Below, in pieces: positions 5,759 through 59,976 of a stretch of 63,075 bases of DNA. The translations under genes were made by a program, and so were the position numbers. Below the pieces are notes generated by a model, which made no database searches, was not told where the DNA came from, and saw only the letters and a program-made list of their open reading frames with translations. Position 1 is the stretch's first letter. Every line of letters begins with the position of its first letter. The DNA comes from Acidobacteriota bacterium (GTDB taxonomy: Bacteria > Acidobacteriota > Terriglobia > Terriglobales > SCQP01), in NCBI GenBank assembly GCA_004299485.1, contig SCQP01000002.1, positions 296,966-360,040 of the forward strand. The letters run 5' to 3'.

Positions 5759-5775
5759 AACTCCATTCTAGCGGT

Positions 5776-5858
5776 TCAGCGTATCAGCGGTTCAGCGGTT
5801 GAGCGGCTCCGCCATTCGCCCGCAGGCGCCGTACCCGGCTGATCCGCTGATACGCTGA
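5776..5858. repeat. Inverted repeat in the lolD-lolC spacer
   Basis: Arms 5776-5790 and 5844-5858 are a perfect 15-bp inverted repeat (tcagcgtatcagcgg against its complement). The match extends to 20 of 21 bases when the inner flanks are included. The spacer contains more copies of the 'agcggttcag' word. It separates two divergent genes, so it overlaps both promoters, and it could form a cruciform or bind a dimeric protein. Confidence 0.7.
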
Positions 5859-5870
5859 TAAGCTGTTCTC

Positions 5871-23710: not shown

Positions 23711-25564
23711 ATGGGCATGTCTAGTTCCGGCACTCTGCTCACCTCCGCTGCTTCCTCGGTCAGCACGGCAACCTTGCTCAACGACTTTAGTCTGCAGGTC
23801 GCCACCGTCAACGGCAGCGGCAGCCAATCGTCCAACCTGGTGCTTTTGCGCACCTTGTTCCAGATGGGCATCCCCATTTCGGGTAAGAACCTTTTCCCCT
23901 CCAACATCGCCGGCCTGCCCACTTGGTATACCATCCGTGCCAGCAAGCACGGCTACGTCGCCCGCAAGAAGGAAATTGACTTCCTGGTTGCCCTCAATGC
24001 GGAGACCGCCCGCGAAGATGTTCTCGCCCTGGAGCCCGGCGCCAGCGTCCTCTACGATGAGCCCCTGGCCCTCGCCAAACTCCGCGCCGATCTCACTTAT
24101 TACTCACTCCCCTTCGATAAGCTTGTCACCCCTGTCTGTCCTCAGGCCAAGCTCCGCAAGCTCGTCCGCAACATGATTTACGTCGGCGCCGTTGCTCATC
24201 TGGTCGGTATGGAAATGCCGGAAGTCGAACGCGCCCTGCAGCGCCAGTTCGCCAAAAAGAAAAAGGCCGCCGACCTCAACTGGGGCGCCATCCAGGCCGG
24301 CTACGACTACGCCCGCGAGCATTATCCCCAGCCCGACCGCTGCCAGCTCCGGCGCATGCAGGCCACCCAAGGCAAAATCGTCATCGAAGGCAATGCCGCT
24401 GCCGCTTTAGGCTGCATGTTTGCCGGCGTTACCGTCCTCGCCTGGTACCCCATCACCCCCTCCAGCTCCCTGTGCGAGTTCCTGATCGACTATCTCAAAA
24501 AGTACCGCCGCACCGCCGACGGCAAAGCCACCTTTGCCGCCGTCCAGGCCGAAGATGAACTCTCCGCCTGCGGCATGGTCCTGGGCGCCAGTTGGATGGG
24601 CGCTCGTGCCATGACCTCAACCTCCGGCCCCGGCATTAGCCTGATGAGTGAGTTCGTCGGCCTCGGCTACTACGCTGAAATCCCCGCCGTCATCTTCGAC
24701 GTGCAGCGCGTTGGCCCCTCCACCGGCCTGCCCACCCGCACCGCACAGGGCGACGTGGCCTTCGCCGCCTGGCTTAGTCACGGTGACACCCGCCACATCG
24801 TCCTCCTCCCCGGCACCGTCGAGGAATGCTACGAGCTCGGCCTCGCCGCCTTTGATCTGGCCGAACGCTTCCAGACCCCCGTCTTCGTCCTGTCCGATCT
24901 CGATCTCGCCATGAATCACTGGATGGCCGATCCCTTCCGCTATCCCGAAAAGCCTTGGGATCGCGGCAAAATTCTCAGCGCTGACGACCTGCAGCGCCTC
25001 CAGGGGGACTGGGGCCGCTATCGCGACGTCGACGGCGACGGCATCAGCTACCGCACCATTCCCGGCAACGAGCACGCCATGGCATCTTATTTTGCCCGTG
25101 GCAGCGGCCACAACGAGCGCGGTCTGTATAGCGAAAAGCCCGACGATTACACGCACAATGTCGACCGCCTCCGCCGCAAGTGGGAAGGCGCCCGCGAAAT
25201 CGTCCCCCAGCCCGTCCTCGAGCACGAAGGCAAAGGTGAAATCGGTATCATCGCCTACGGCAGCTCCCACCCCGCGGTCATGGAATCCCTCGACCAGTTA
25301 CGCGCCGAGTACGGCATCGAGCCTTCCTACCTCCGTCTGCGCGCTTATCCTTTTGCCGGCGCCATCGCCGGCTTTGTCCGCCGCCACGCCCGCGTCTACG
25401 TCATCGATCAGAACCGTGACGGCCAGATGCATGATCTGCTCCTGACCGACCTTGGCGCCGAGCTCGGCGCCCGTCTCCATTCCATCCGCCATTACAACGG
25501 CCTCCCCGTCGACGCTCGCAGCCTGACCGATGCCCTCCGCTCCCAGGAGCACCAGACAAACTGA
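23711..25564 (+). CDS. korA: 2-oxoacid:ferredoxin oxidoreductase, alpha subunit (KorA-like, gamma fused)
   Basis: This subunit takes part in CoA-dependent oxidative decarboxylation of a 2-oxoacid, probably 2-oxoglutarate, with ferredoxin as acceptor. The N-terminal gamma-type domain (about 15-190) precedes the alpha pyrimidine-binding domain. The latter begins KIVIEGNAAAALGCMFAGVTVLAWYPITPSS and continues with DELSACGMVLGASWMGARAMTSTSGPG. The length of 617 aa resembles actinobacterial-type KorA. The ATG at 23711 (or 23717) is chosen because the longer frame starts inside the divergent hydrolase gene. TATACT at 23692 is a likely -10. The stop codon TGA is contributed by a 'CTGAAATACTG' repeat. 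Confidence 0.9.
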   Translation: MGMSSSGTLLTSAASSVSTATLLNDFSLQVATVNGSGSQSSNLVLLRTLFQMGIPISGKNLFPSNIAGLPTWYTIRASKHGYVARKKEIDFLVALNAETAREDVLALEPGASVLYDEPLALAKLRADLTYYSLPFDKLVTPVCPQAKLRKLVRNMIYVGAVAHLVGMEMPEVERALQRQFAKKKKAADLNWGAIQAGYDYAREHYPQPDRCQLRRMQATQGKIVIEGNAAAALGCMFAGVTVLAWYPITPSSSLCEFLIDYLKKYRRTADGKATFAAVQAEDELSACGMVLGASWMGARAMTSTSGPGISLMSEFVGLGYYAEIPAVIFDVQRVGPSTGLPTRTAQGDVAFAAWLSHGDTRHIVLLPGTVEECYELGLAAFDLAERFQTPVFVLSDLDLAMNHWMADPFRYPEKPWDRGKILSADDLQRLQGDWGRYRDVDGDGISYRTIPGNEHAMASYFARGSGHNERGLYSEKPDDYTHNVDRLRRKWEGAREIVPQPVLEHEGKGEIGIIAYGSSHPAVMESLDQLRAEYGIEPSYLRLRAYPFAGAIAGFVRRHARVYVIDQNRDGQMHDLLLTDLGAELGARLHSIRHYNGLPVDARSLTDALRSQEHQTN

Positions 25565-25595
25565 AATACTGAAATACAGATGTACTGAAACACTG
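25561..25595. repeat. Single-ended CTGAAATACTG repeat at korA stop codon
   Basis: The repeat core starts inside the last codons of korA (AAC-TGA) and runs with two more 'actgaaa' words almost to the korB start. It matches the right ends at 52958 and 48863 in its core but differs in the middle. No four-helix-bundle gene remnant is visible beside it. Confidence 0.75.
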
Positions 25596-43225: not shown

Positions 43226-43243
43226 TTACCAGCGGTGTGCATT

Positions 43244-43266
43244 CTGAAATACTGATCTACTGAAAT
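43244..43266. repeat. Single-ended CTGAAATACTG repeat
   Basis: These 23 bp match the right end of the four-helix-bundle element at 52958-52980 exactly. No partner end or gene remnant is seen within 200 bp. It lies in the adaptor spacer next to the LytTR-like fragment. Confidence 0.75.
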
Positions 43267-43378
43267 CCCCCTCACCCCCGTCCGAATCCGGACACCGGCA
43301 CGGCAAATCCGGACAGCCCCGCCCCCGCTCAGCCCCGCTAACCCCAAGAAAGTGAACTCCTTAGAGCCCTCTTGGAAC

Positions 43379-43394: not shown

Positions 43395-43411
43395 TCCGTA
43401 TAGTCTTAGTT

Positions 43412-44728: not shown

Positions 44729-44799
44729 AAATAGTTCTTGGAAACACATCCGCCCCAGATACTGCTCATGACTCTTCCTAGCACCTCGAAGGCCACCGT

Positions 44800-44937: not shown

Positions 44938-44967
44938 GTCGGGCCCTGCGGGCCAGAGGGGAAATCA

Positions 44968-45893: not shown

Positions 45894-45954
45894 AGCCCGT
45901 CCGGACGGCCCTCAGTTTCCCCGCTGTAGCGCCATAATCCGGACGGGCTTTTTT
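45894..45954 (+). terminator. Long-stem terminator
   Basis: AGCCCGTCCGGA (45894-45905) pairs with TCCGGACGGGCT (45938-45949) to give a 12-bp stem with a 32-nt loop. It is followed by a T-run to 45954 (TTTTTT), the form of a Rho-independent terminator. It ends the adaptor-ATPase transcript, so the channel gene at 46103 should have its own promoter. Confidence 0.75.
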
Positions 45955-46068
45955 GTGTCTCGCGCACATCATACACGAGTCTGTCCGTTTCCGGACACAG
46001 CAGTTGCAATACCGAACGAATCTCCCTCTGCACACGTACTTAACCTATGTTCTTTCTTCGCTTTGCGA

Positions 46069-46084
46069 TGGCCCCTGACGTGCC
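46069..46084 (+). promoter_or_regulatory. Possible sigma-54 promoter upstream of the TolC-like gene
   Basis: TGG-CCCCTGACGT-GC again shows GG-N10-GC (GG 46070-46071, GC 46082-46083) and shares 'TGGCCCC..ACGTGC' with the site before the adaptor gene, at nearly the same distance from the ATG. No TANNNT hexamer sits 6-7 nt before this start. The match to consensus is partial. Confidence 0.4.
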
Positions 46085-46102
46085 CTCTTTTCGCTGATAA
46101 CC

Positions 46103-48046
46103 ATGCTTTCCAAATCTGTCCTTGCCCTGCTCGCGGCCGCCTCGCTCACCCTTGCCGCCATTGCCCAACAGCCTGCCGCAGTCCACGCGCAACAAGCCCC
46201 CGCCGCCTCCGCCGGCCCCGAGCTGCATGCCACCAACAGCGCCGTTCCGCAGAAGCTCGACTTCACGAGCCGCGGCGGCTGGTTCAGCTTCTGGCAGCGC
46301 TACCAGCCCGCCAATATCGGCCTGCCCAATTTGACGAACCCGGCGCCGGTGCAGCGCGCTGCCACCTCCGGAACGTTCTATCTTTCTTTGCATGAGATGT
46401 TGGCCATGGCTCTGACCGCCGACCTCGACATCGCCAATGCGTCGTATGGCAAGCTCGAGGCCGAACCTGATTATCTCCGTACCCTGGCCGGTGGCACCGC
46501 GCGCGGCGTGGCCGGCGAATTCATCTCCTCGGCCCTGTTTTCCGGCGCCATCGGCGCCAGTAGCACCGGCGGTAGCAGTGGCGGCGGCAGTAACGCCGGC
46601 TCCGTTAATGGCGGCGGCAATGGCGTGCACGGCGGCGGTGGCGGTTACGATCCCAGTTTTAATTTCCAGTTCCAGGACGAGCATTCCCGCCAGCCTCTCG
46701 GCAACCCGGTGTTATTCGGCACCTCCGAGCAGGTCCTCAATCAGAACTTCGGTGCCGCCTCGTTTGGCCAGAGCTTTACCACCGGCACCGGCTACACCGT
46801 CACCTTCTTCAGCTATCGCTCTTACCAGAACACCAATCAGTTGTTCCTGAACCCCCAGGTCGCCAGCGACGTCAGCCTCGGCATGCAGCAATCGTTGTTG
46901 CGTGGCGCCCGCCGCTCCATCAATCGTGCCGGCATGGTCATTGGCGCCAACAGCTTGAAATACGCCGACGCCAACTACAAAGATCAGGTGACCACCGCCG
47001 TCTCCCAGGCGATTACGCAATACTGGACCCTTGCCGCCGCCCAACAGCAGATCGCCATCACCGAAAAGGCCGAACAGGACGCTCAAAAGACCCTGGATGA
47101 CACCAACGCTCTCGTCCAGAACGGCAAAGTCCCCGCCGCCAATCGCATCACTGCCGAAACCGGCCTCAGCACGGCCATCTCCGCGGTGCTGCAAGCCAAA
47201 ACCGATTACGCCAAGGCCGCCTCCAAGCTCAAATCGTTCTTGGTCAAGCGCTGGACGCCCAATGTCATCACCGCCCGCGTGGTTCCCACCGATACTTTGC
47301 CCGAACCCCAGGCCGCCGCGCTGGCTCCCGTCCATCAACTCGTCCAGCGTGCTCTCAACTTCAGCCCGAAACTCGCCGAAGATCGCATTAACATCAACAA
47401 CATTGATCTGACCGTCAAAATCCGCAAAGACTCTTTGCTCCCCAATCTCACCGTCTACGCCAGCTATACCTCCAGCGGCGTCGCCGGCGTCGGCGTCAAC
47501 TGCTCCGTTCCCGCTTTTCCGTGCCCTCTCGCCAATATCACCGGGCGCTCCATCGCCGGCTTCGGCACCTCCCTCGGCAATATCTTCAGCTATCGCGCTC
47601 CCGACTATGGCGTCGGCTTTGACCTCAGCATTCCCGTCTGGAATCGCACCAATCGCGCCGACGAAGCCACCGCTGAGCTCCAGGCCGCGCAGTACCGCAT
47701 CAACCTCCAGAACGACGAAAACAACGTCACGGAAAAGGTCAACGAAGATCGCATTGAACTCGAAGGCCAGGTGGCCCAGCTTAAATCCGCGCAGACGGCG
47801 CAACAGCAATTTCAGCAGGCTCTCGACAACGCCCGCGCCAAATATCAACTGGGGAAGGGAACCATTGATACCGTCGAAGCCGCGCAATCGGCTCTGACCA
47901 GCGCTGCCAAGGCCGTCGTTGCCGCTCAGCAGGCTTACGCCATCGCCCAGGTCACGCTGGCCACCGATAGCGGAACCCTCCTCGGTGACTATCACATCTC
48001 TCTCGGCGCGCCCCTGGCCCGCCAGGGCATCCCCAATCTGCCTTAG
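46103..48046 (+). CDS. TolC-family outer-membrane channel
   Basis: This outer-membrane efflux protein of 647 aa has a signal peptide (about 1-22), a Gly/Ser-rich insertion (about 150-185) and two repeated alpha-barrel helices, for example AAQQQIAITEKAEQDAQKTLDD and AQLKSAQTAQQQFQQALDNARAKYQLGKGTIDTVEAAQSAL. The C-terminal segment is typical of TolC-like channels. It completes an adaptor/ATPase/channel set, although it starts 149 bp after a terminator. The downstream ATPase gene follows after 21 bp. Confidence 0.88.
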   Translation: MLSKSVLALLAAASLTLAAIAQQPAAVHAQQAPAASAGPELHATNSAVPQKLDFTSRGGWFSFWQRYQPANIGLPNLTNPAPVQRAATSGTFYLSLHEMLAMALTADLDIANASYGKLEAEPDYLRTLAGGTARGVAGEFISSALFSGAIGASSTGGSSGGGSNAGSVNGGGNGVHGGGGGYDPSFNFQFQDEHSRQPLGNPVLFGTSEQVLNQNFGAASFGQSFTTGTGYTVTFFSYRSYQNTNQLFLNPQVASDVSLGMQQSLLRGARRSINRAGMVIGANSLKYADANYKDQVTTAVSQAITQYWTLAAAQQQIAITEKAEQDAQKTLDDTNALVQNGKVPAANRITAETGLSTAISAVLQAKTDYAKAASKLKSFLVKRWTPNVITARVVPTDTLPEPQAAALAPVHQLVQRALNFSPKLAEDRININNIDLTVKIRKDSLLPNLTVYASYTSSGVAGVGVNCSVPAFPCPLANITGRSIAGFGTSLGNIFSYRAPDYGVGFDLSIPVWNRTNRADEATAELQAAQYRINLQNDENNVTEKVNEDRIELEGQVAQLKSAQTAQQQFQQALDNARAKYQLGKGTIDTVEAAQSALTSAAKAVVAAQQAYAIAQVTLATDSGTLLGDYHISLGAPLARQGIPNLP

Positions 48047-48067
48047 GCTTGCGTTACCCTAAGAGGC

Positions 48068-48736
48068 GTGATCCAGCTCCGCAAACTCGAAAAAACCTAT
48101 CCCGCCGGCGTCGGCAAAACCTACGCCCTGCGCCAGATCAACCTGGACATCCGCGAGGGCGAGTTTCTCACCGTCATGGGACCCTCCGGCTCCGGCAAAT
48201 CGACGCTGCTCTCTATCCTCGGCATGCTCGATAGCCTTTGGAGCGGCGAGTTCTTCTTTCTCGACACCCCCGTCCACAAGCTCCCGGTGAAGAAGCGCAT
48301 CGAGCTCAACAAGGCCTACATCGGCTTCGTCTTCCAGAGCTATCACCTGCTCGACAATTTGACGGTCTACGAAAACCTTGACGTCCCGCTCTCCTACCGC
48401 GACATCCGCTCCAAGGACCGCGCCAGCCTCGTTGCCGACACCCTCGACCGCTTCCAGATTGTCGGCAAGAAGGATCTCTACCCTAGCCAGCTCTCTGGCG
48501 GCCAGCAGCAGCTCGTCGCCATCGCCCGCGCCGTTATTGCCAACCCCAAACTCATCCTCGCCGATGAACCCACCGGCAATCTCCACTCCGCCCAGGGCCG
48601 TGAAATCATGGAGCTCTTCAAGCGCCTCAATGGCCAGGGTACGACGATTATCCAGGTCACCCACAACGAGCAAAACGCCGCCTACGGCGACCGCATCATC
48701 GAGCTGGCAGATGGCTGGCTGGTGAAGGGGAATTAG
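48068..48736 (+). CDS. ABC transporter ATPase (second, MacB/LolD type)
   Basis: This 222-aa ATPase has Walker A GPSGSGKS (about 38-45), [31 protein letters not shown] and [11 protein letters not shown]. It differs from the first ATPase (44968) by the shorter N-terminus and by LHSAQG in place of LDSKNG. The start GTG is 21 bp after the channel gene. Like the other one it lacks an adjacent permease. The stop is followed by a degenerate four-helix-bundle element. Confidence 0.9.
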
Positions 48737-48741
48737 TTTTT

Positions 48742-48889
48742 CAGTATTTCAGTACATCAGTTTGTCAGTTCATGCAGGCCTTCCTCAAGTCGACGCTGTG
48801 GCGCAAAGCGCACACCCTGCGCGCACGCCTGCTCTCGCGCCTCGCCGCCAGCCCGAGCCCGACTGAAATACTGACATACTGAAATACTG
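48742..48889. mobile_element. Internally deleted copy of the four-helix-bundle element
   Basis: The left end (48742-48768) matches the 27-bp left end at 52562 at 25 of 27 positions, and the right end (48863-48889) matches the right end at 52958 at 25 of 27. Between them is a 37-codon frame that keeps the first and last codons of a four-helix-bundle gene but lacks the middle. This is the pattern of a non-autonomous deletion derivative. Confidence 0.75.
48772..48882 (+). pseudogene. Deletion remnant of a four-helix-bundle (S23-type) gene
   Basis: The frame begins MQAFLKSTLWRKAHTL, which parallels MQDFRNLTAWRKAYEL of the intact gene at 52591. It then jumps to RLLSRLAASPSP, paralleling RILSRLIVTLRSSPN at the end of that gene. 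The central 80 or so residues are absent. Stop codon TGA is supplied by the right repeat. Confidence 0.7.
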
Positions 48890-48903
48890 AAATACCGATA
48901 TCT

Positions 48904-50274
48904 GTGCCGACTCCCCCGAAAATCCTGATCGCGGATGATGCCACGGACGTTAGAGAAGCCCTCCGCCTTCTCCTCAAGTCTTCCGGCTTCCGCACCGAAT
49001 CCGTCGACTCCCCTTCCGCCGCCTTGCAATCCCTTCAGTCTCAGGAGTTCGACCTCCTCCTGCTCGACCTGAACTTCACCCGCGACACCACCAGCGGCGC
49101 GGAAGGCCTGGAGCTACTGCCCAAAGTCCTGGCGCTCGACTCTACCCTCCCTGTCGTGATCATGACTGCTTGGGGCACGGTCGAGATTGCCGTCGAGGTC
49201 ATGCGCCAGGGCGCCCGCGATTTCATCGAAAAGCCCTGGAACAACGAGCGCCTGCTTACCATCGTCCGCAATCAGGTCGAACTCCGTCGCGCCTTGCGCA
49301 ACGAGCAGCGCCTTGAGGCCGAAACCCGCCTCTTGCGCGCCGAGAATCGCCCCGAACTCATCGCCGAATCCGTCGCCATGCGCCCCCTGCTGCAGCTCAT
49401 CACCCAGGTCGCGCCCTCCGACGCCAACATCCTCATCACCGGCGAAAATGGCACCGGCAAAGAGCTCATCGCCAAAACCATCCACGCTCTTTCCCATCGC
49501 TCTGCCCGCGCCCTGGTCACCGTCAACGTCGGCGGTCTGCCCGAAGGCATTTTTGAAAGTGAGGTCTTCGGTCACATTCGCGGCGCTTTTACCGATGCCA
49601 AAGCCGACCGCGTTGGCCGCTTCGAAATGGCCGACGGCGGCACCCTCTTCCTCGATGAAATCGGCAATCTCGGCCTCGCGCAGCAAGCCAAGCTTCTGCG
49701 TACCATCCAGTCGGGCGAGCTCGAACGCGTCGGCTCCTCCAAGACCCGCAAGGTCGATGTTCGCCTCCTCGCTGCCACCAACACCGATCTCGGCCAGGCG
49801 GTCGCGGAGGGCCGCTTCCGTCAGGACCTTCTCTTCCGCATCAACACCATCGAAATCCATGTCCCACCCCTCCGCGAGCGCCGGGAGGACATCCCCACCC
49901 TCGCCCAGTTTTTCCTCCGTCGGCTCGCCGCTCGCTACCAAAAATCCATCGCCGGCTTCGACCCCGCCGCCCTGCGCGCCTTGCAGGAACACCCATGGCC
50001 CGGCAACGTCCGCGAACTCGAACACGCCGTCGAGCGCGCCGTCCTGCTCGCTCACGCCAATCTCATACAGGCCAGCGACCTCGGCCTGCGCACGACGCCT
50101 GTCGCTGGCGCTCCCAGCCTCGCCGGCCTCGATGCGTTGCCGCTTGACGAAGCCGAGCGTATCCTTGTCCGCACCGCCCTCGAGCGCGCCGGCGGCAATA
50201 TCCATCACGCCGCCAAAGCGTTAGGCTTAAGCCGTGCCGCCCTCTACCGCCGCATCGAACGTTACGGCCTCTAA
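48904..50274 (+). CDS. NtrC-family sigma-54-dependent response regulator
   Basis: This 456-aa regulator has an N-terminal receiver with phospho-acceptor Asp55 (LLLLDLNFTRD). Its AAA+ domain has Walker A GENGTGKE (180-187) and the sigma-54-contact loop GAFTDA (227-232) in place of GAFTGA. A Fis-type helix-turn-helix ends the protein (AAKALGLSRAALYRRIERYGL). It should activate promoters of the -24/-12 type. The last G-to-D change in the loop may weaken this. The GTG start follows the right repeat of the deleted element. The kinase gene overlaps its end by 41 bp. Confidence 0.93.
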   Translation: MPTPPKILIADDATDVREALRLLLKSSGFRTESVDSPSAALQSLQSQEFDLLLLDLNFTRDTTSGAEGLELLPKVLALDSTLPVVIMTAWGTVEIAVEVMRQGARDFIEKPWNNERLLTIVRNQVELRRALRNEQRLEAETRLLRAENRPELIAESVAMRPLLQLITQVAPSDANILITGENGTGKELIAKTIHALSHRSARALVTVNVGGLPEGIFESEVFGHIRGAFTDAKADRVGRFEMADGGTLFLDEIGNLGLAQQAKLLRTIQSGELERVGSSKTRKVDVRLLAATNTDLGQAVAEGRFRQDLLFRINTIEIHVPPLRERREDIPTLAQFFLRRLAARYQKSIAGFDPAALRALQEHPWPGNVRELEHAVERAVLLAHANLIQASDLGLRTTPVAGAPSLAGLDALPLDEAERILVRTALERAGGNIHHAAKALGLSRAALYRRIERYGL

Positions 50275-51634
50275 GCACCGAGGCCAACGCCCGGCGACCA
50301 ACCCCAGCTCGCTGCTCCTTTGGCTGGGCATGATGGCTGGTCTTCCCGCCGTCGCTGCGGCACTGGTCCTCATCTGGCTTCCACAGGACCAGGCCGTTTT
50401 CAGTTCCGCGGGCACGCACGGCTGGCAAATTCTGCTGACTCTGGTCATTGTCTTCACCTGGCTCGGTCTCACCATCGGTCTGCGTGAGCGCGTCGAGTTG
50501 GTTCTGGGCACACTCGCCAACATGCTCGCGGCCGTCCGCGAAGGCGACTACTCGGTCCGCGCCCGCGGGGCCGGCTACAGCGACTCCTTCGGCGCTCTCG
50601 CCTCGGAAATCAATCGCCTCTCTTCTTTCCTCCGTGATCGCCGCGTCGCCAGTCTCGAAGCCAGCGCCTTGCTTGACAAAGTTGTCGAAGCCATCGACAT
50701 CGCCGTCCTCGCCTTTGACGATCAGCAGCGCCTCCGTCTCATCAACCCTGTCGGCGCCACCCTCCTCGCCGCTCCACCCGAGCGCCTGATGGGCCAATCC
50801 GCCGCCGAGCTCGGCCTCGCCCCCATGCTCACCGGCCCCAGACATCGCCTTCAGGAGGCCACCTTCCCCGGCGGTCCCGGCCGTTGGGATATCCGCCACT
50901 CCCAATTCCGTCAGGACGGCAAGCCCCACCATCTCCTCGTTATTTCCGATCTCAGCCAGCCCTTGCGCGAAGAGGAGCGCCTCGCCTGGTACCGCCTCAT
51001 TCGCGTCCTCGGCCACGAAATCAACAACTCCCTCGCCCCCGTCATGTCCCTCGCCGGCTCACTTGCCGGCCTCTTACAGCAACCGCAATCCGACGACTGG
51101 AGCGAAGACATGAGCCACGGCCTCAACGTCATCGCCGACCGCGCCGCCGCCCTCAACCGCTTCATGGGCAACTACACCCGTCTTGCGCGTCTGCCCCAGC
51201 CCGACCTCCATCCCACCGGCGTGCGTTCTCTGGTCCAGGCCGCGGTCCGCCTCGAACAGCGCCTTCCCGTCGAAATTCGTCCCGGCCCCGAAATTGAGGT
51301 CTCCCTTGATCCCGATCAAATCTCCCAGGTCGTCATCAACCTCCTCCGCAACGCCGTCGATGCCTCTTTAACAACCCAGGGTAACGTCCAGATCGGCTGG
51401 GACTTGCGCCACCAATGGCTGGAAATCTGGATCGCCGACGAAGGTCCCGGCCTCGCCTCCACCGCCAACCTCTTCGTCCCCTTCTTCACCACCAAACCCG
51501 GCGGTTCCGGCATTGGTCTTGTCCTTTCCCGCCAGATCGCAGAGGCCCACCACGGCCGCCTCACCCTCAGCAACCGCCGCCACAGCCCCGGTACGGAAGC
51601 CCGCCTTTACCTGCCTTTAGAGACGCTAAACTGA
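50234..51634 (+). CDS. NtrY-like membrane sensor histidine kinase
   Basis: This 466-aa kinase has two N-terminal transmembrane helices (about 27-48 and 66-84), a HAMP-like segment (GLRERVELVLGTLANML...), a PAS-like region (about 145-230), the H-box LGHEINNSLAPV with the phosphorylated His, and the ATP-binding N (NLLRNAVDA), G1 and G2 boxes (DEGPGLA, GGSGIGLVLSRQI). GHEINN is the NtrY/NtrB type. The GTG start lies inside the regulator gene, so translation is coupled. The pair probably senses envelope stress and controls the efflux genes upstream, which is inferred from synteny. Confidence 0.9.
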   Translation: MPPSTAASNVTASKHRGQRPATNPSSLLLWLGMMAGLPAVAAALVLIWLPQDQAVFSSAGTHGWQILLTLVIVFTWLGLTIGLRERVELVLGTLANMLAAVREGDYSVRARGAGYSDSFGALASEINRLSSFLRDRRVASLEASALLDKVVEAIDIAVLAFDDQQRLRLINPVGATLLAAPPERLMGQSAAELGLAPMLTGPRHRLQEATFPGGPGRWDIRHSQFRQDGKPHHLLVISDLSQPLREEERLAWYRLIRVLGHEINNSLAPVMSLAGSLAGLLQQPQSDDWSEDMSHGLNVIADRAAALNRFMGNYTRLARLPQPDLHPTGVRSLVQAAVRLEQRLPVEIRPGPEIEVSLDPDQISQVVINLLRNAVDASLTTQGNVQIGWDLRHQWLEIWIADEGPGLASTANLFVPFFTTKPGGSGIGLVLSRQIAEAHHGRLTLSNRRHSPGTEARLYLPLETLN

Positions 51635-51638
51635 AGTG

Positions 51639-52556
51639 GTGAAACTAGCCGCCACGCTGCTTGCGTTAAGCCTAGCCGCCTTCGCCACTCCAAAACCTAA
51701 GCCCCAGCTCTACCAGGCCTTCAATGGTGAGCAGTGCTACCGCTACACTGCCAAGGTGGTTGGCTTCGGCCCTCGCACTCCCGGCTCCATCGGCCATAAG
51801 GAAACCGAGGCGCTGGTGCGCCGCGTGGTCGAGCGCGATGGCGGCCAGTTCTCGGCCTACGATTTCATCGATCCGAATTCGCCCCGCGGCACTGTTCCCG
51901 TCCACAACCTCATCGCCAAGTTCAACGTCTCCAATAACCCCAACCAGCCCATCTTCATCCTCGCCGGCCATTACGACACGCTTTTCAAGAAGGGCTTTGT
52001 CGGCGCTGTCGACGGCGGCTCCAGCACGGCGATTTTGCTCTCCTTCGCCGACGCCCTCCACGCCGCCAAGCCCACCAAAATGCAAATCTGGCTGGTCTGG
52101 ACCGACTTTGAAGAAGCGGTGAAATCCTTCCAGGGCGACGACGGCCTCGTTGGTAGCCGTCATCTCGCCCACAAGCTCGCCGCCGCAGGTCTCGTGCCCC
52201 GCATCCGCGGCTTCTTCCTGCTCGATATGATCGGCTACAAAGACCTGAGCGTCGACAAGGAGTCCAGCTCGACCCCTTGGCTCCAGGCCTTCATCATGTC
52301 CGCCGCCACCAAGCTCGGCTACCAGCAGTACTTCTTCAAGTACTCGGAAGAGATCATCGACGATCAGAAGCCCTTCGCCAACGTCGGCATCCCCGTGGTC
52401 GACGTGGTCGACGCCCACTTCGGCCCCATGCCCGGCGACGGCATGGGCGCCTACCACCACACCAACCAGGACACCATGGACAAGGTCTCGTCCCACAGTC
52501 TCACGGTCGTCGGGAAGACGGTCCTCCTCGCCGTCGAACTCATTGACGCGCAATAG
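51639..52556 (+). CDS. Exported M28-family zinc peptidase
   Basis: This 305-aa peptidase has a signal peptide (about 1-17, MKLAATLLALSLAAFA). M28 zinc ligands are visible in LAGHYDT (His), VDGGSS (Asp), FLLDMIG (Asp) and YHHTNQDT (His). The catalytic Glu is probably in WTDFEEA. The type resembles glutaminyl-peptide cyclotransferases and aminopeptidases. The GTG at 51639 has TAAACT 6 nt upstream; an in-frame GTG at 51636 is an alternative. It starts within 4 bp of the kinase stop. Confidence 0.88.
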   Translation: MKLAATLLALSLAAFATPKPKPQLYQAFNGEQCYRYTAKVVGFGPRTPGSIGHKETEALVRRVVERDGGQFSAYDFIDPNSPRGTVPVHNLIAKFNVSNNPNQPIFILAGHYDTLFKKGFVGAVDGGSSTAILLSFADALHAAKPTKMQIWLVWTDFEEAVKSFQGDDGLVGSRHLAHKLAAAGLVPRIRGFFLLDMIGYKDLSVDKESSSTPWLQAFIMSAATKLGYQQYFFKYSEEIIDDQKPFANVGIPVVDVVDAHFGPMPGDGMGAYHHTNQDTMDKVSSHSLTVVGKTVLLAVELIDAQ

Positions 52557-52561
52557 TACGT

Positions 52562-52984
52562 CAGTATTTCAGTACATCAGTATTTCAGTCATGCAGGACT
52601 TCCGGAATCTGACCGCCTGGCGAAAGGCGTACGAACTCACGTTGGGTGTGTATCGTGCTACGGTGAAATTTCCGGCTGAGGAACGCTATGGCCTCAGCAG
52701 CCAGCTTCGTCGCGCGGCAGCCTCCATTGCCGCGAACATTGCCGAAGGCTGCGGCCGCCGCGGCAACACCGAATTGCGCCGCTTCCTCGAAATCGCCATG
52801 GGATCGGCCAGCGAAGTCGAATTCCATCTCCTGCTCGCCAATGACCTGGCTTATCTGTCCCCGGAGGTGTACGCCACCCTCCACGATCAGATCGTCGATT
52901 GCAAACGCATCCTCTCGCGCCTAATCGTCACCCTCCGTTCGTCCCCGAACTGATGTACTGAAATACTGATCTACTGAAATACTG
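52562..52984. mobile_element. Four-helix-bundle element with 27-bp inverted ends
   Basis: The left end (52562-52588) and right end (52958-52984) are inverted repeats with 26 of 27 identical positions. The interior is filled by a single gene: its ATG is 2 bp from the left end and its TGA ends 4 bp before the right end. No target-site duplication is obvious (flanks tagtacgt and ttttcatg). The same ends occur around a deleted copy at 48742-48889. Confidence 0.75.
52591..52953 (+). CDS. Four-helix-bundle protein (S23/IVP-like)
   Basis: This 120-aa protein begins MQDFRNLTAWRKAYELTLGVY and contains FPAEERYGLSSQLRRAAASIAANIAEGCGRR, RRFLEIAMGSASEVEFHLLLANDL and a last helix QIVDCKRILSRLIVTLRS. This is the four-helix bundle of the 23S rRNA intervening-sequence protein family, also related to Avd proteins of diversity-generating retroelements. 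These proteins bind nucleic acid as oligomers. The biochemical job is unknown. The gene exactly fills the inverted-repeat element, and a longer in-frame start at 52543 would only add translated repeat. Confidence 0.88.
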   Translation: MQDFRNLTAWRKAYELTLGVYRATVKFPAEERYGLSSQLRRAAASIAANIAEGCGRRGNTELRRFLEIAMGSASEVEFHLLLANDLAYLSPEVYATLHDQIVDCKRILSRLIVTLRSSPN

Positions 52985-52989
52985 TTTTC

Positions 52990-53637
52990 ATGCCCCTCCG
53001 AACCTCCGAGGCCTTCATCCTCCGCACCTACCCTCTGAAAGAGACCGACCGCATCGTCAGCTTTTTCACCCGCGATTTCGGCAAAAAGCGTGGCGTCGCC
53101 CGCGCCGCCCGCCGCCCCAAATCCAAATTCGGCGCCTCGCTCGAACCCCTCACCCAGGTGCGCATCCAGTTCTTCGAGCGCGAAAGCCGTGACCTCTGCT
53201 CTATCGACCACTGCGAGCTGCTCGCCTCCCCCCTGTCCGCCCGCACCAACGATCTGCTAAATTCAGTTGCGATATCGCTCATCGCCGAGGTTGCCGACCG
53301 CATGCTGCCCGAAGCCGAAGTCAGCGACGCTACCTATCGCCTGCTGGCCGCCGCGACCACCGCCCTGCGCACCGCGCCCACAGCGTGGCTCCCGCTGACG
53401 TATTACTTATACTGGATGGTCCGCCTAGGAGGCTTTTTGCCAATCCTGTCCATCACCCCAGAAGCCGAGTCCCTGGCCCAGTCTATTGCGACCTCGCCTC
53501 TACCCACCCTCCAGGGCGATGCGGCCGGCGCCGCTGGCCGCGAGCTCCGCCGTGTCCTTCGCGCCGCCCTCGAAGACCACCTCGAAGGCGCGCTCCGCTC
53601 CTGGCCGATTCTCCTGACCCTCGAGCCCGCAAACTGA
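52990..53637 (+). CDS. recO: DNA repair protein RecO
   Basis: This recombination mediator (215 aa) helps RecR load RecA. The N-terminal OB fold is clear: EAFILRTYPLKETDRIVSFFTRDFGKKRGVARAARRPKSKFGASLEP. A helical C-terminal domain follows. The zinc-finger cysteines found in many RecO proteins are missing (region LGGFLPILSITPEAESL), and the protein is about 25 residues shorter than usual. The start lies 6 bp after the right repeat of the four-helix-bundle element, and its own TGA stop is part of another CTGAAATACTG repeat. Confidence 0.9.
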   Translation: MPLRTSEAFILRTYPLKETDRIVSFFTRDFGKKRGVARAARRPKSKFGASLEPLTQVRIQFFERESRDLCSIDHCELLASPLSARTNDLLNSVAISLIAEVADRMLPEAEVSDATYRLLAAATTALRTAPTAWLPLTYYLYWMVRLGGFLPILSITPEAESLAQSIATSPLPTLQGDAAGAAGRELRRVLRAALEDHLEGALRSWPILLTLEPAN

Positions 53638-53660
53638 AATACTGAAATACTGACATACTG
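53634..53660. repeat. Single-ended CTGAAATACTG repeat at recO stop codon
   Basis: The repeat begins in the last codon of recO (AAC-TGA) and continues to the glyQ start region. It resembles the right ends at 52958 and 48863. As with korA, the stop codon belongs to the repeat. Confidence 0.75.
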
Positions 53661-53670
53661 AAAAACTCCC

Positions 53671-54561
53671 TTGACCTTCCAAGATCTCATCCAACGCCTT
53701 CAATCCTTCTGGGCCGGGCACGGCTGCATCGTCCAGCTCCCCTTCGATCTCGAAGTCGGCGCCGGCACCATGGCGCCCGAGACGTTTCTGCGTGTCTTAG
53801 GTCCCAAGCCCTATCGCGTGGTTTATCCACAGCCCAGCCGCCGGCCCGCCGACGGCCGCTACGGCGAAAACCCGAACCGCCTCTATCGCCACACCCAGAT
53901 GCAGGTAATTCTTAAACCAGCACCTGAAGATGTACAAGACCTGTACCTGCAAAGCCTTGAGGCGATTGGGATTACGCTCTACGACCACGACCTCAAGTTT
54001 GAGGAAGACAACTGGGAATCCCCCACCTTGGGGGCCTGGGGCCTGGGTTGGCAGGTCATGCTCGATGGCCTGGAAATCACACAATTCACATATTTTCAAC
54101 AATCTGGCGGCCAGGACCTCAACCCAATTCCCGTCGAGATCACCTATGGGCTGGAGCGCATTGCCGCTTTCCTCCAGGACGTCGACTCCGTCTACGACAT
54201 TCACTGGAATGCGACCACCACTTATCGCGAGGTTCGTTTTCTCGACGAACTTCACAGTTCCGTCTATAGCTTCGAAAAGGCGGACGTCGACCGCCTCTGG
54301 CAGGCATTCGAAGGCAACGAGCGCGAATGCCGTGCCCTGCTGCATCAATTCCGCCAACTCCCCGCTGCCGCCCGCGGCCGCTTTCCCATCCTCGCCGCCT
54401 ACGAGCTCTGCCTGCGCTGCTCGCATCTGTTCAATCTGCTCGACGCCCGCGGCGCTATCTCCGTCACCCAGCGCGTCGATATGATCCAGCGCATCCGCTC
54501 GCTCGCCGTTGGCATCGCCAGCGCCTATACCGAGCAGCAAGAGGAGCAAGTGCATGCTTAG
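53671..54561 (+). CDS. glyQ: Glycyl-tRNA synthetase, alpha subunit
   Basis: This is the catalytic-site subunit of the (alphabeta)2 bacterial glycyl-tRNA synthetase (296 aa). Conserved elements are [33 protein letters not shown] and [19 protein letters not shown]-like sequence, plus the class II segment [34 protein letters not shown]. The TTG start lies 33 bp after the recO stop, immediately after the repeat. It overlaps glyS by 8 bp. Confidence 0.96.
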
Positions 54562-56593
54562 CAACACCGCCCCGCTGCTGATCGAGATCGGTTGCGAGGA
54601 ACTTCCCGCCGCCGCCGTCCAGTCCCTGGCCGAATCGCTGCTGCAAAACCTCATGCAACGCTTGCTGGACGCTCACCTCACCGAGGGCGCCCCCGAATCC
54701 TCTGCCTGGACGCCCCGCCGCCTCATCTTCCGTCATCCGGCGATTCACTTGCGCCAGCCGCAAAGCGAAGAGATCATCGCCGGTCCGCCCGTGCGCATCG
54801 CTTTCAAACCCGACGGCAGCCTCAGCGCCCAGGGCGCTGGCTTTGCCGCCAAAAACGGCGTCAGTCCCGAAGCCCTCTTCCGCCAGACTACCCCCAAAGG
54901 CGAATATCTAGCCGTCCGCAAAAAGACCGGCGGTGGCGCCGCCAGCACGCTGCTGCTCGACCTGATTCCCGAGGCCATCCGCGCCATCCCTCTGCCGCGC
55001 TCCATGCGCTGGGACGGCGAGCTGCGCTTTCTCCGCCCTGTCCGCTGGCTCCTTGCCCTCCATGGCGAAACTCTCATTCCTTTTCGCCTCGGCTCCCTCA
55101 CCGCAGCCGCCGAAAGCCGTGGCCATCGCACCCTGGGCAAACCCCGTTTCGCGGTTGCGAGCGCCAACGATTATCCCGCCCGCTGGAAAAAGAACTTCGT
55201 CATCCCTTCGCCCGCCGACCGCTACGCCGCCATCTTTGGCCCCACCCGCGTCCCCTTCCAGCGCGAAGACATCGAGCTCGAAAACACGCTCGTGAATCTC
55301 ACGGAGTGGCCCAGCACCATCGTGGGCGAGTTCGACCCCGCCTACCTCAAGACTCTCCCGGCCGATGTGCTCATCACCGTCATGCGCGACCACCAGAAAT
55401 ATCTGGCGGTTGGCGACGGCAGCGGCAATCTGGCTCCCAAATTCATCGCCGTCCTGAACCAGAACAGCGATCCCAAGGGTCTCATTCGCCACGGCAACGA
55501 GCGCGTTCTGCGCGCCCGCTTCAGCGACGCCCAGTTCTTCTTCGACACCGACCGCAAGCGATCGCTCCGCGACCGCCTCCCGCTGCTTGATCAGGTCACC
55601 TTTCAGGCCAAGCTCGGCAGCTACGGCGCCAAAGCCAAACGCATGCAAACGCTTGCCGCCGCGCTCGGCGGCAATGCCGATGCGCAGCAAGGCGCCCTGC
55701 TCGCCAAGTGCGATCTCACCACCGAAATGGTGAAGGAGTTTCCCGAGCTGCAAGGCATCATGGGCGGCCATTACGCCCACGCCGAAGGCCTGCCGGAAAC
55801 CGTCGCGACCGCCATTGCCGACCAGTACCGCTGGGACACGCCTCCGCGCAGCCGCGAAGGCGCCGTGGTCTCTCTGGCCGACAAACTCGACACCATCGCC
55901 GGCATGTTCGCTCTCGGTGAAATTCCCACCGGCTCCGCCGACCCCTTCGCTCTCCGCCGCCAGGGCAACGGCATCATCCGCACCCTGGTCGAGTGCCAAT
56001 TGCCGCTCTCCCTCCGCCACGCGGTCGAGCAAACCCTCGCCGGGTACGGGGCTATTGCCGAATTCCATCCGGCCGCCGAAACCCTCGCCGCCACCGCGGC
56101 ATTCTTTACGGAACGCTTGAGCTTTTACCTGCGCGACGCCCGTGGCGCCAGCACGAATCAAGCCGTCGCCGTGCTTGCGTCCGGCGCCGACATTCCCCTC
56201 GATGCCGCTCAACGTCTCGCCGCCCTGCAAAAGGCGCCCGACCTGGCCGCCGTCGCCGCCGTCGTCAAACGCGCCCGCAGCATCGTCCGCAAAGAAGGCG
56301 GCCTGGATAAATGGATCGCCCAAGGGCTCGCCCAACCTCTCGATCCCGCGGCCCTCACCCAACCCGCCGCCCAAGCCCTCTACGCTGCCGTAAAATCCCT
56401 GCCCGAATCGCAAGACTACGCCGCCGAGCTCCAGGCCATCGCCTCCCTTGCCTTGCCCCTTGAGCGTTTCTTTACCGAAGTCCGCGTCAACGACCCCGAC
56501 CCAGCCCTTCGCGCCACCCGTCTCTCGCTGTTGGCCTCCACCGTCGCCCGCCTCAACCGCATCGCTGATTTTGCCGAGCTCGCCGTCTCTTAA
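54554..56593 (+). CDS. glyS: Glycyl-tRNA synthetase, beta subunit
   Basis: This tRNA-binding partner of GlyQ has 679 aa. The N-terminus [22 protein letters not shown], the RGPP-like element (here [28 protein letters not shown]) and FRLGSL are conserved. The central HD-like segment reads [43 protein letters not shown]. The C-terminal anticodon-binding domain contains [11 protein letters not shown] and ends with [22 protein letters not shown]. The ATG 8 bp before the glyQ stop is used. Confidence 0.96.
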
Positions 56594-56636
56594 ATCCCAG
56601 CGCCATCTCTATCTCTTCAGTCCACCCCGTCAAAAC

Positions 56637-56668
56637 TGTAAACTGCGAACTGTAAACTGTGAACTTTT
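56637..56668. repeat. Word repeat 'aactgtaaactg' after glyS
   Basis: The word 'aaactgtaaactgcgaactg' repeats with an 8-9 bp period just before the start of the HMA-like gene. It is a different family from CTGAAATACTG, but lies in the same kind of place. Confidence 0.6.
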
Positions 56669-56669
56669 T

Positions 56670-56897
56670 ATGACCACAATGGATATTGCCTTTTCTTACG
56701 CCGGCCCGCTGACCGACCCGCAGATCCAGGCGCTCTCGCGCCTCTCCGACGTCTACGGCATCCGCAAGCTCCGCATCGACGAAGCTGCCGGCTCTCTCGC
56801 CATCGAATACGATGCAACCCGCATGGATTCTGCCCGCGTCGAAGCCTTGGTCCGCTCCTGCGGCGTCGCCCCGCTCCCGGAACCCGTCAGCGCCTAG
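56670..56897 (+). CDS. Small protein with heavy-metal-associated-like fold
   Basis: This 75-aa protein has the beta-alpha-beta-beta-alpha-beta pattern of HMA domains (MDIAFSYAGPLTDPQIQALSRLSDVYGIRKLRIDEAAGSLAIEYDATRMDSARVEALVRSCGV). The metal-binding CxxC is absent and only one cysteine near the end remains. A metal chaperone role is therefore unlikely. A ligand-free scaffold or regulator may be meant. Its ATG is preceded by a T-rich stretch after a repeat, and its end overlaps the oxidoreductase gene by 11 bp. Confidence 0.6.
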   Translation: MTTMDIAFSYAGPLTDPQIQALSRLSDVYGIRKLRIDEAAGSLAIEYDATRMDSARVEALVRSCGVAPLPEPVSA

Positions 56898-57840
56898 CCG
56901 ATAGCTCCAGCCCCTCGCGGTGAATCCGGATCGCCTCCGCCGCACGCAGCGCCACCTCCAACGCTGCCCGCGCCGCCGCGCCATCGCATTCCGGCGCGTC
57001 CCGGTTCGTTACGCACCCCAGAAACGCATCGATCTCAGCCTTCAACGGTTCCGTGTCCCCGCCCTGCAAATGTTCATGAGCCAAAGCCGGCATGGGCGCG
57101 CCAGGTGCCGACGTCAGGCGGAAAAGCTCGGCATCCCGCCGCGCCAGATCGAGCGAAATGTATTCCGCCGGCTGAAAAAACCGCAGCTTCCGCACCCGCT
57201 CGGTACTGACCCGGCTGGCGGTTAAATTCGCCACACAGCCGTTAGCGAACGTCAGCCTCACGTTGGCGATATCGGTATGCGTGCTCAGCACCGCCAGCCC
57301 CACACCCTGCAATTCCGTGACCGGCGCCTTCACAAAACTCAGCACCAGGTCGAGGTCGTGAATCATCAGGTCCAGCAGCACATCCACATCGAGGCTGCGG
57401 GGCGTGAACACGCTCAGCCGGTGAACTTCAAAAAACAACGGCCGCGTCACCCGCGGCCGGACTAACTGCACCGCTGGATTGAACCGCTCCAGATGTCCCA
57501 CCGTCAGAATGCGGCTATGCTTCTGTGCCGCGGCAATCATGGCATCGGCGTCCTGAAGCGATGGCGCAATCGGCTTCTCCACCAGCACATCCAGCCCCGC
57601 TTGCAGCAGTTCGATGGCCACCGCCGCATGTGCCGTCGTCGGCACAGCGACGGAAACGGCCTTCGCCTTTTGCTTCACTTCATCCAGCGAACGCAGCACC
57701 GGCGCGCCTAAAGCTTCCGCTCGCTCCCGGTTCGCGTCGTAGACCCCAACCAGCTCGGCTCCCGGCAGCTGAGCGTAAATCCGCGCATGATGGCGCCCAA
57801 ACGATCCGCAGCCCACCACCGCAACGGGAATCGCACTCAC
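56887..57840 (-). CDS. Gfo/Idh/MocA-family oxidoreductase in the lipid A operon
   Basis: This NAD(P)-dependent sugar dehydrogenase of 317 aa has IPVAVVGCGSFGRHHARIY (Rossmann loop), VEKPIAPSLQDADAMI (EKP motif) and GHLERFNPAV. It is directly coupled to lpxI by a 4-bp overlap (GTGA). A family member in this position could be GnnA, which oxidises UDP-GlcNAc at C3 to enable a 2,3-diamino lipid A, but the aminotransferase GnnB is not in the window. The GTG start is chosen on the overlap. Confidence 0.82.
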   Translation of the reverse strand: MSAIPVAVVGCGSFGRHHARIYAQLPGAELVGVYDANRERAEALGAPVLRSLDEVKQKAKAVSVAVPTTAHAAVAIELLQAGLDVLVEKPIAPSLQDADAMIAAAQKHSRILTVGHLERFNPAVQLVRPRVTRPLFFEVHRLSVFTPRSLDVDVLLDLMIHDLDLVLSFVKAPVTELQGVGLAVLSTHTDIANVRLTFANGCVANLTASRVSTERVRKLRFFQPAEYISLDLARRDAELFRLTSAPGAPMPALAHEHLQGGDTEPLKAEIDAFLGCVTNRDAPECDGAAARAALEVALRAAEAIRIHREGLELSARR

Positions 57841-58658
57841 GATTTCCCTCGTCCCTCGATGGCAATCCCCGCCGCGTTGGCTGCGGCCAGGCACTCCGCG
57901 CGTTCCAGCATCAACGTCAGTCCGCTCTCCAGCCCCAGCGCCGTTGCGCCCGCAGTCCGCATGGCGGCAATCGTGCGTGGCCCGATCACCGGCACGTCGT
58001 AGCGCAAGTCCTGCTTCGGCCTTGCAACTTTGACGATGGTCAGCGGCCGTCCGCCCGCCAGCCCCGCCGCGCGCTGAATCATGGCGTCGGTCCCTTCCAT
58101 CGCTTCCGCCGCCACGCACGCCCGCGCCGCAATGGCCACGCTCTGGCCAATGTCTGCTGCCGCCAGATGCCGCGCGACGCTAAAACCGTAGTCCAAATCC
58201 GCCTGCTCTCGCTCGTCCGGTTTTCGCGCCGTCATCACGCCCGACGTCGCTAGCAGCGGCCGCAGGAAGTCGGTTGAACTTTCGAGCGTAATCCCTTCTT
58301 CCTCCAGTATCTTTGCCACCCCGCCCAGCAGCGAATCGGTGTTCCGGGTGGCGAGCGAAGCAAGCAGCATGGCCATTTTCCAGTCCGGCCGCAAGTGCGA
58401 AAAAATCTGCTTGTGCTGCACCTGCCCCGCCATGACGGCGCGCTTGACCCCGGCGCCATGAAATACCTGAATCAGCTTCCCGAGCTGCCCCAGGCTCAGC
58501 CAATGCACCTCGCCCGCATGCTCGCCAATACTGGGGTCCGTCTCTTCTTTGATCGCGGCAACTACCATGGCAATCCCGCGTCCTCGCGCCGCCTCCAGCA
58601 GCAGAAACGGAAACCTCCCATTCCCCGCAATCAGCCCATACCTTTCGGTATCGCTCAC
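57837..58658 (-). CDS. lpxI: UDP-2,3-diacylglucosamine pyrophosphatase LpxI
   Basis: This is the lipid A pathway hydrolase that releases UMP from UDP-2,3-diacylglucosamine, replacing LpxH. The 273-aa protein has YGLIAGNGRFPFLLLEAARGRG, VKRAVMAGQVQHKQIF and the C-terminal KVARPKQDLRYDVPVIGPRTI, matching LpxI. The start lies 28 bp after lpxA, separated by a run of 'ttttccc' words. It is coupled to the oxidoreductase gene. Confidence 0.92.
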   Translation of the reverse strand: MSDTERYGLIAGNGRFPFLLLEAARGRGIAMVVAAIKEETDPSIGEHAGEVHWLSLGQLGKLIQVFHGAGVKRAVMAGQVQHKQIFSHLRPDWKMAMLLASLATRNTDSLLGGVAKILEEEGITLESSTDFLRPLLATSGVMTARKPDEREQADLDYGFSVARHLAAADIGQSVAIAARACVAAEAMEGTDAMIQRAAGLAGGRPLTIVKVARPKQDLRYDVPVIGPRTIAAMRTAGATALGLESGLTLMLERAECLAAANAAGIAIEGRGKS

Positions 58659-58688
58659 TTTTCCCTTTTCCCTTTTCCCTCTTCCCTC
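58657..58688. repeat. Heptamer word repeat in the lpxA-lpxI gap
   Basis: The word 'ttttccc' is repeated three times with a perfect 7-bp period, followed by two diverged copies (cttcccctc). It occupies the entire intergenic gap and reaches the lpxI start. Confidence 0.65.
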
Positions 58689-59457
58689 ATTTGATCACCC
58701 CCCTCTCGCTGGTCTCGATAAACTCCACCAGCATCTCCGTATCCGCGTTCCACGCCTCCGCGCGAATCCGCTCCACGGCTTGTGTCGTGTTCAGGTCCGA
58801 GTTCAGCAGAATCCGGAACGCCTGCTGCAGCACCGCGATCCGCTCCGCGCTGAAGCCCTTGCGCTTCAGGCCGATGGCGTTGGCGCCGAAGGCGTGGTTG
58901 TCGCGCGTGGCGCTGGTCTTGGCGAAGGGAAGTACATCCTGGGTGGTGATCGTGCCCCCGCCCAGGTAGGCATGCGCGCCCACGCGCACAAAGGGATGAA
59001 CCGGCGAAAGCGCGCCCAGGGTGGCATGATCGCCGACATGCACGTGCCCGCCCAGCGTCGAGCCGTTCGCCATGATGATGTGGGAGCCGAGCTGACAGTC
59101 ATGCGCGACATGGCAATAGGCCATCAGCAGATTGTGGCTGCCGATGCGCGTCACGCCGCCGCCCTTGGTCGTCCCCCGGTGCAGGCTGCAAAACTCGTGA
59201 ATCACGTTGTGATCGCCGATCTCCAGCCGCGTCGCCTCGCCTTTGTAGGTCAAATCCTGCGGCGCCATGCCGATCGTGACAAAAGGGAAGATTTCGTTGT
59301 CGCTGCCGATGCGGCAATCGCCTTCGATCACCACATGCGAATGCAGCCGGCAGCGTTCGCCCATTTCGACGCCCGCACCGATGACGCATCCCGGCCCAAT
59401 CTCGCACGAGTCCGGTACCCGCGCGGCTTCATGAATGACGGCCAGCGGAGATCTCAT
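58687..59457 (-). CDS. lpxA: UDP-N-acetylglucosamine acyltransferase
   Basis: This is the first committed enzyme of lipid A synthesis. The 256-aa protein has hexapeptide repeats forming a left-handed beta-helix (IGPGCVIGAGVEMGERCRLHSHVVIEGDCRIG). The catalytic His is probably in NLLMAYCHVAHDCQLG. The C-terminal helical region starts near VGLKRKGFSAERI-type sequence. It follows fabZ with a 4-bp overlap. LpxA and a Gfo/Idh enzyme in one operon raises the question of N-linked acylation (see finding). Confidence 0.94.
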   Translation of the reverse strand: MRSPLAVIHEAARVPDSCEIGPGCVIGAGVEMGERCRLHSHVVIEGDCRIGSDNEIFPFVTIGMAPQDLTYKGEATRLEIGDHNVIHEFCSLHRGTTKGGGVTRIGSHNLLMAYCHVAHDCQLGSHIIMANGSTLGGHVHVGDHATLGALSPVHPFVRVGAHAYLGGGTITTQDVLPFAKTSATRDNHAFGANAIGLKRKGFSAERIAVLQQAFRILLNSDLNTTQAVERIRAEAWNADTEMLVEFIETSERGVIK

Positions 59458-59948
59458 GCTTCCGTCCGCGGCACCACCGCGCAGCTCAGCAGGCCTTCGG
59501 CTGCCAGCTTCTCGCCCACAAACGCCCGTCCCTGCATCCGCCCGGCCGTCGACCGGAAGCGCAGCACCTCGACTTCCAGCCGCAACTGATCTCCCGGCAC
59601 CACCGGCTGCCGGAAGCGCGCACCATCCACCCCCGTGAAGTAGATCAAGTGTTCGCCCGGCGCCCGGTCTTCGTACAGGATCATCAGTGCGCCCGCCTGC
59701 GCCAGCGCTTCCAGCACCAGCACGCCCGGCATGATCGGATGCCCGGGAAAATGCCCCTGAAAAAACGGCTCGTTGGCGGTCACGTTCTTGATCGCGGTGA
59801 TCCGTTTGCGCGGCTCGAACGCCACGATGCGGTCCAGCAGCAGGAACGGGAAGCGGTGCGGCAGCAGACGCTCAATTTCCGGTATACCCATCGGCAGCGT
59901 CGGGGGCAGGGAAGCGGGTGCAATAGTTTCAGCGTTTTCCGGCATCAT
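59454..59948 (-). CDS. fabZ: 3-hydroxyacyl-ACP dehydratase FabZ
   Basis: This hot-dog-fold dehydratase (164 aa from ATG 59948) has the catalytic sequence QGHFPGHPIMPGVLVLEALAQ with His66 and Glu80. It makes trans-2-enoyl-ACP in fatty-acid synthesis and competes with LpxA for 3-hydroxyacyl-ACP, which explains the coupling. An N-terminal leader of about 20 residues precedes the conserved domain. The region before ATG 59948 overlaps the promoter of the divergent M20 peptidase, so longer starts are not credible. Confidence 0.94.
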   Translation of the reverse strand: MMPENAETIAPASLPPTLPMGIPEIERLLPHRFPFLLLDRIVAFEPRKRITAIKNVTANEPFFQGHFPGHPIMPGVLVLEALAQAGALMILYEDRAPGEHLIYFTGVDGARFRQPVVPGDQLRLEVEVLRFRSTAGRMQGRAFVGEKLAAEGLLSCAVVPRTEA

Positions 59949-59976
59949 GGGCAAAAGCCATTTTACAATGGCCGCT

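Follow-up and report, generated by a model that had tools for sequence, protein, structure and literature searches.

A stretch of DNA from an Acidobacteriota bacterium (63,075 nucleotides, here called the window) carries a small S23-type four-helix-bundle gene enclosed between inverted repeats and outside rRNA. What kind of genetic unit is this, and how could it move? From the letters alone, the original prediction described a single free chromosomal element with its own specific 27-bp inverted ends and no transposase. The existence of a unit, its position outside rRNA, the occurrence of empty sites in relatives and the lack of a transposase have all held up; the notion of a single element with specific 27-bp ends has not. 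Our analysis suggests instead that the locus belongs to a widespread kind of small mobile unit, apparently not described before, in which an S23 gene stands between inverted tandem arrays of a repeat of 7 bp or, less commonly, 8 bp.

Anatomy of the S23 unit and its kin in the window

The inverted repeats first noticed at 52562–52588 and 52958–52984 are real and extend to 28 nt at 96% complementarity (52562–52589 against 52957–52984). They are not discrete repeats, being the best-matching register of two longer tandem arrays of one 8-bp unit (CAGTATTT / AAATACTG) that are inverted around the S23 gene (Table 1). Because the right array is longer than the 27-bp repeat and begins at 52949, the stop codon (TGA, 52951–52953) lies inside it and not, as had been proposed, 4 bp before the right end. 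The left array directly adjoins the ATG at 52591, and no Shine-Dalgarno sequence is recognisable upstream. In profile searches the protein scored far above the cut-offs of PF05635 (121.6 bits versus 33.8) and TIGR02436 (119.7 bits versus 24), which agrees with its assignment as a four-helix bundle.

Table 1 Arrays, S23 gene and S23 gene remnant in the window
Feature	Position	Strand	Details
Left array	52555..52589	-	4.4 units of the 8-mer: AGTACGTC AGTATTTC AGTACATC AGTATTTC AGT
S23-type four-helix-bundle gene	52591..52953	+	120 aa, PF05635 / TIGR02436
Right array	52949..52984	+	4.5 units: ACTGATGT ACTGAAAT ACTGATCT ACTGAAAT ACTG; stop codon of S23 gene in first unit
Second unit, left array, 8-mer of the 52555-52984 unit	48735..48770	-
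S23 gene remnant, internally deleted	48772..48861	+	MQAFLKSTLWRKAHTL..., compare MQDFRNLTAWRKAYEL...
Second unit, right array, 8-mer of the 52555-52984 unit	48862..48901	+
Solo array, 8-mer of the 52555-52984 unit, recO-glyQ spacer	53633..53667	+
Short solo array, 8-mer of the 52555-52984 unit	25560..25595	+
Short solo array, 8-mer of the 52555-52984 unit	43243..43262	+
Gene-less inverted pair, different 8-mer (AGCGGTTC / GATCCGCT)	5770..5865	.	arms 31 bp apart

The neighbours of the unit are an M28 peptidase gene (stop at 52556) and recO (ATG at 52990), the latter followed by the two glycyl-tRNA synthetase genes. No rRNA is present at 40000–60000, which places the unit outside any 23S rRNA gene, and no transposase gene is encoded within it. 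The same 8-mer recurs in the window: ACTGAAATACTG has 16 one-mismatch matches, compared with 0.06 in shuffled sequence. A second unit, with an ABC ATPase gene on one side and a response regulator on the other, holds only 90 bp between its arrays. As this interior still starts like an S23 gene, the second unit appears to be an internally deleted copy. Gene-less inverted pairs and solo arrays in intergenic space look like non-autonomous derivatives or remnants. Three arrays of other units also occur in the window with no S23 gene nearby: an GACCGACA 8-mer at 43030–43058, an AAACTGT 7-mer at 56633–56665 and a TTTTCCC 7-mer at 58655–58688.

As in the intervening sequences of 23S rRNA, complementary ends flank the S23 ORF. 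Arm pairing in the unit far exceeds chance when RNA folding is compared with shuffled sequence, and the unit RNA folds 5.7 standard deviations better than the shuffles (z −5.7). The unit could be an RNA-level element of that kind: the transcribed arms would base-pair, the stem would be acted on by a nuclease such as RNase III and the S23 protein would bind its own RNA, with spread occurring by rare horizontal transfer and recombination and no transposition. The strong folding is consistent with this, as are the location of S23 units between co-directional genes and the correspondence in ORF family, size (~430 bp) and arms (~28 bp, one mismatch) with the intervening sequence of Coxiella (PMC4990558). 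However, the order of variable bases is matched between arms no better than unit composition gives (19.0 versus 18.5 after shuffling, p 0.3), so that an exact stem is not what is kept and we do not propose selection on the stem sequence. Dispersed solo arrays and gene-less pairs are also left unexplained. We consider an RNA-level element unlikely, though not far-fetched.

Arrays and S23 genes in the genome and across phyla

Genome-wide figures given here derive from sequence searches and sampled stretches of the genome. The window's genome contains four S23 genes, each with inverted arrays of its own unit: the window 8-mer and, with period 7, AGCTTAC (L010), a CAGTTGT-like unit (L012) and TAGTGGC (L009). 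The array sequence is characteristic of the individual unit. What had been taken for the private ends of one odd element is a dispersed 8-bp repeat. Far from being confined to this locus, arrays of the window 8-mer are present at at least ~20 further places, four of them within ~30 kb of the S23 gene and at least ~17 elsewhere in the 3.3-Mb genome; they seem to be denser near the gene, on a post hoc count among the matches listed. Over 463 kb of the genome, arrays with a 7- or 8-bp period (63) greatly outnumber those of periods 5, 6, 9, 10 and 11 combined (10), and their units recur as families. Neighbouring arrays of the same unit are inverted in 12 of 13 pairs and direct in one, and all 12 inverted pairs share the polarity of the S23 units. 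For several unit families the stretches read contain no S23 gene, which counts against the explanation that we favour below.

To see this setting on a broader scale, 108 free-standing S23 genes were assembled from relatives and from a scan of species genomes, with taxa including Acidobacteria, Bacteroidota, Planctomycetes, Chloroflexi, Desulfobulbaceae and one cyanobacterium. Inverted similarity between flanks has a median score of 16.5 for these genes and 8.0 for 278 neighbouring ORFs, and 81 of the 108 exceed the 99th percentile of the latter. At a threshold passed by 5% of control flanks, 82 genes have an array on at least one side and 34 on both. The periods are 7 (99 arrays), 8 (16) and 6 (1), and the median length is 4.9 units. 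For free-standing S23 genes from different phyla, inverted 7/8-bp arrays are the typical context. Further S23 genes in the relatives G024 and G019 each have a unit of their own, and S23 genes on cyanobacterial plasmids are found in a like setting between arrays. No rRNA was found at 20 other S23 loci, picked among those with weak or no arrays. Array density is weakly higher in genomes with S23 genes than in those without (4.0 versus 1.6 per 100 kb, p 0.06), a difference that is suggestive only.

Two loci from the survey have individual features. On a Pseudanabaena plasmid (L313, 1501–1860) an S23 unit with long heptamer arrays is located between cas6 and cas4. At L223, in G024, arrays with a 6-bp unit (TTTCAG) surround an S23 gene; beyond them, in the right flank, come another S23 start, which is truncated, and one more inverted array.

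A reverse transcriptase acting in trans, as for Avd, was considered as a candidate and rejected. None (RVT_1, PF00078) is present in the window's genome, which is 98.8% complete, and among 60 relatives the enzyme shows no association with S23 presence (12 of 28 genomes with S23, 11 of 32 without).

The arrays and the proteins vary together. At non-orthologous loci, array similarity drops with S23 protein distance (r −0.25, a value reached in 0 of 300 permutations), loci with homologous flanks having been left out; the correlation holds only when arrays are compared in gene-relative orientation. In ten orthologue pairs S23 dN/dS is 0.03–0.28, i.e., the gene is under purifying selection while the arrays gain and lose units. 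A T-Y-R-G-Y motif is complete in 52 of 102 units in gene orientation and in 3 in the opposite sense; about 7 would be expected from shuffled units, and the motif was chosen from the same data.

Occupied, empty and altered sites in relatives

Sites with and without the unit exist in close relatives, and neither outcome named beforehand as a refutation (relatives that never show an empty site, ends confined to this locus) was observed. At the M28-recO site the two genes overlap in the congener G002 (TAATG), leaving no space for a unit; at that position G004 carries only a solo array, made of a different unit, and G001 and G003 have other sequence, apparently an unrelated gene. The site of the deleted copy in the window is empty in G001 and holds a full S23 gene with a 7-mer in G002. 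In a genus of 62 genomes, an S23 unit before pheT (named from its protein sequence) is present in G028 and G037 and absent from nearly all others, with flanks up to 91% identical, and the G039 locus is likewise occupied in few genomes and empty in nearly all others. ATGAA at both ends of the G028 pheT insertion forms a 5-bp direct repeat and is the sole candidate for a target-site duplication, the junctions at other insertions being too diverged to read. G024 and G019 (85% identity) also differ clearly in array presence and absence, with unreadable junctions. For five close genomes of genus g9, the 80 kb compared hold too few arrays for solo-array polymorphism to be assessed, and the extra several hundred bp in L094 relative to L087 contain no recognisable array-bounded unit.

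A conventional IS or MITE with terminal repeats of 27 bp, mobilised by a transposase not seen here, would account for the inverted ends, the internal deletion derivative at 48735–48901 and the empty sites. Members nevertheless share no fixed terminal inverted repeat, the array unit varying even within one genome, and no consistent target duplication was seen; this explanation is hardly credible.

In favour of the explanation preferred below, one heptamer in G043 bounds two full S23 copies (77% identical), several gene-less pairs and solo arrays. Other sites fit less well. At two orthologous sites, 7-mer arrays of G043 correspond in position to arrays of an 8-mer in G038 and G105, i.e., the unit has changed at array sites that were kept, which plain transposition does not explain. 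One inverted pair of this kind is retained with the 7-mer at L372 (8935–9040, G043) and with the 8-mer at L392 (G038) and L393 (G105). A single intergenic site in the close relatives G043, G038 and G104 holds three different S23 units, one of them reversed. Between the same neighbours in Acidobacteriaceae the S23 gene was observed in both orientations (L076, L078, L080, L082, L086, L089, L091, L092, L096 and L097); the genes themselves align in one sense, and it looks as if the unit can turn around at its site. These misfits may stem from conversion of one array family into another, from recurrent insertion at preferred sites or from inversion between the arms.

Such sites raise the alternative that arrays are ordinary, slippage-prone intergenic repeats serving as landing sites for S23 cassettes that enter by recombination, and are not ends made by S23. 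The three different units at one site, the turnover of units at retained array sites and the whole-unit differences in copy number between orthologous arrays all fit this idea. It does not readily accommodate the fixed polarity and inverted pairing of arrays, periods almost exclusively of 7 and 8, the way in which unit and protein vary together at unrelated loci, or sites that are fully empty in relatives, and we give it only a small chance.

Proposed mechanism and comparison with known systems

The explanation that we prefer, with a probability of roughly 55% as a whole, is a widespread, mobile-element-like family of S23 units with gene-less derivatives, in which a ring of S23 protein binds the arrays and marks the units. 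Five chains are present in each of the solved S23 relatives, 2GSC and 2RLD, and in 2GSC, from Xanthomonas, five four-helix bundles form a ring (PMC4990558). We infer that the S23 protein likewise assembles as a five-subunit ring. This ring would hold about 4–5 successive array units through the core T-Y-R-G-Y on one strand, possibly one unit per subunit, because the solved relatives are five-chained and the arrays have a median of 4.9 units. The putative target is the element itself, either as single-stranded DNA that folds through its inverted arms or as RNA. Bound protein would mark its own unit and, in trans, gene-less array pairs, making S23 the presumed mobiliser of gene-less copies; host replication and repair enzymes could then copy or join the marked units at new intergenic sites. 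Reverse transcriptase would not be needed for this movement step, because the window's genome has none and its presence in the 60 relatives is independent of that of S23.

A wider proposal can be put forward tentatively, as possible but somewhat doubtful: S23 proteins may supply the trans-acting factor for a class of mobile DNA found throughout bacteria, which ends in short tandem arrays of an element-specific unit and moves with neither a transposase nor a reverse transcriptase of its own. Heptamer and octamer arrays reported as orphans from cyanobacteria, Xanthomonas, Geobacter and Beggiatoaceae would then be non-autonomous copies, and the intervening sequences of 23S rRNA a specialised branch.

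Short tandemly repeated repetitive (STRR) sequences of cyanobacteria are intergenic arrays of few 7- or 8-nt units. TAACTGA arrays occur in Beggiatoaceae, cyanobacteria and Bacteroidetes, with no evident transmission mechanism, and a repeat-binding protein was considered there as a mobile element (PMC4679880). GGGAATC arrays are found in Xanthomonas and GGGGA(T/C)T arrays in Nostoc (PMC4692102), and the "global regulator binding sites" of Geobacter are arrays that occur mostly as opposite-strand pairs (PMC2700814). These orphan arrays resemble ours in their intergenic location, in having few 7- or 8-nt units and, in Geobacter, in their opposite-strand pairing; they differ in having been reported without a proposed partner gene, and the searched text of PMC4679880, PMC2700814 and PMC4692102 does not mention a helix-bundle protein. 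In our literature search, no paper connected heptamer or octamer arrays to S23 or four-helix-bundle genes, which is weak evidence of novelty since most subscription papers and all preprints lay outside the scope of the search. Our results suggest that the S23 gene is a partner for this class of repeats. Several reports describe such arrays, but their cause is not known, and S23 proteins, although their structures have been solved, have no known function; the joint occurrence of the two across phyla, the empty sites and the way in which the unit follows the protein make both questions testable. If S23 proteins do mobilise arrays, DNA can be dispersed without a recognised catalytic gene in the unit.

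The accessory protein Avd of diversity-generating retroelements has an S23-like fold and forms a five-subunit ring. In contrast to those systems, the S23 unit has no reverse transcriptase, and a PF00078 search finds none in the window's genome. The intervening sequences of 23S rRNA in Coxiella and Leptospira share the S23 ORF, a length of ~430 nt and ~28-nt complementary ends with one mismatch, and are suspected to be selfish elements (PMC4990558). Unlike them, the S23 units described here lie outside rRNA, have tandem 7/8-bp arrays as ends, and occur several to a genome with differing units and with dispersed gene-less and solo forms. In REPIN/RAYT systems, too, a gene is flanked by inverted short repeats and many gene-less inverted doublets are intergenic (PMC3116915), and here both gene-less inverted doublets and a gene-bearing copy of the same short repeat are found. 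The gene in our units encodes an S23-type helix bundle (PF05635) and not a Y1 transposase, and tandem heptamers or octamers take the place of the REP palindromes. In its dynamics, the window unit behaves like a gene-plus-miniature-element system of the REPIN/RAYT type; in ORF and anatomy it matches the intervening sequences of 23S rRNA, but it lies outside rRNA.
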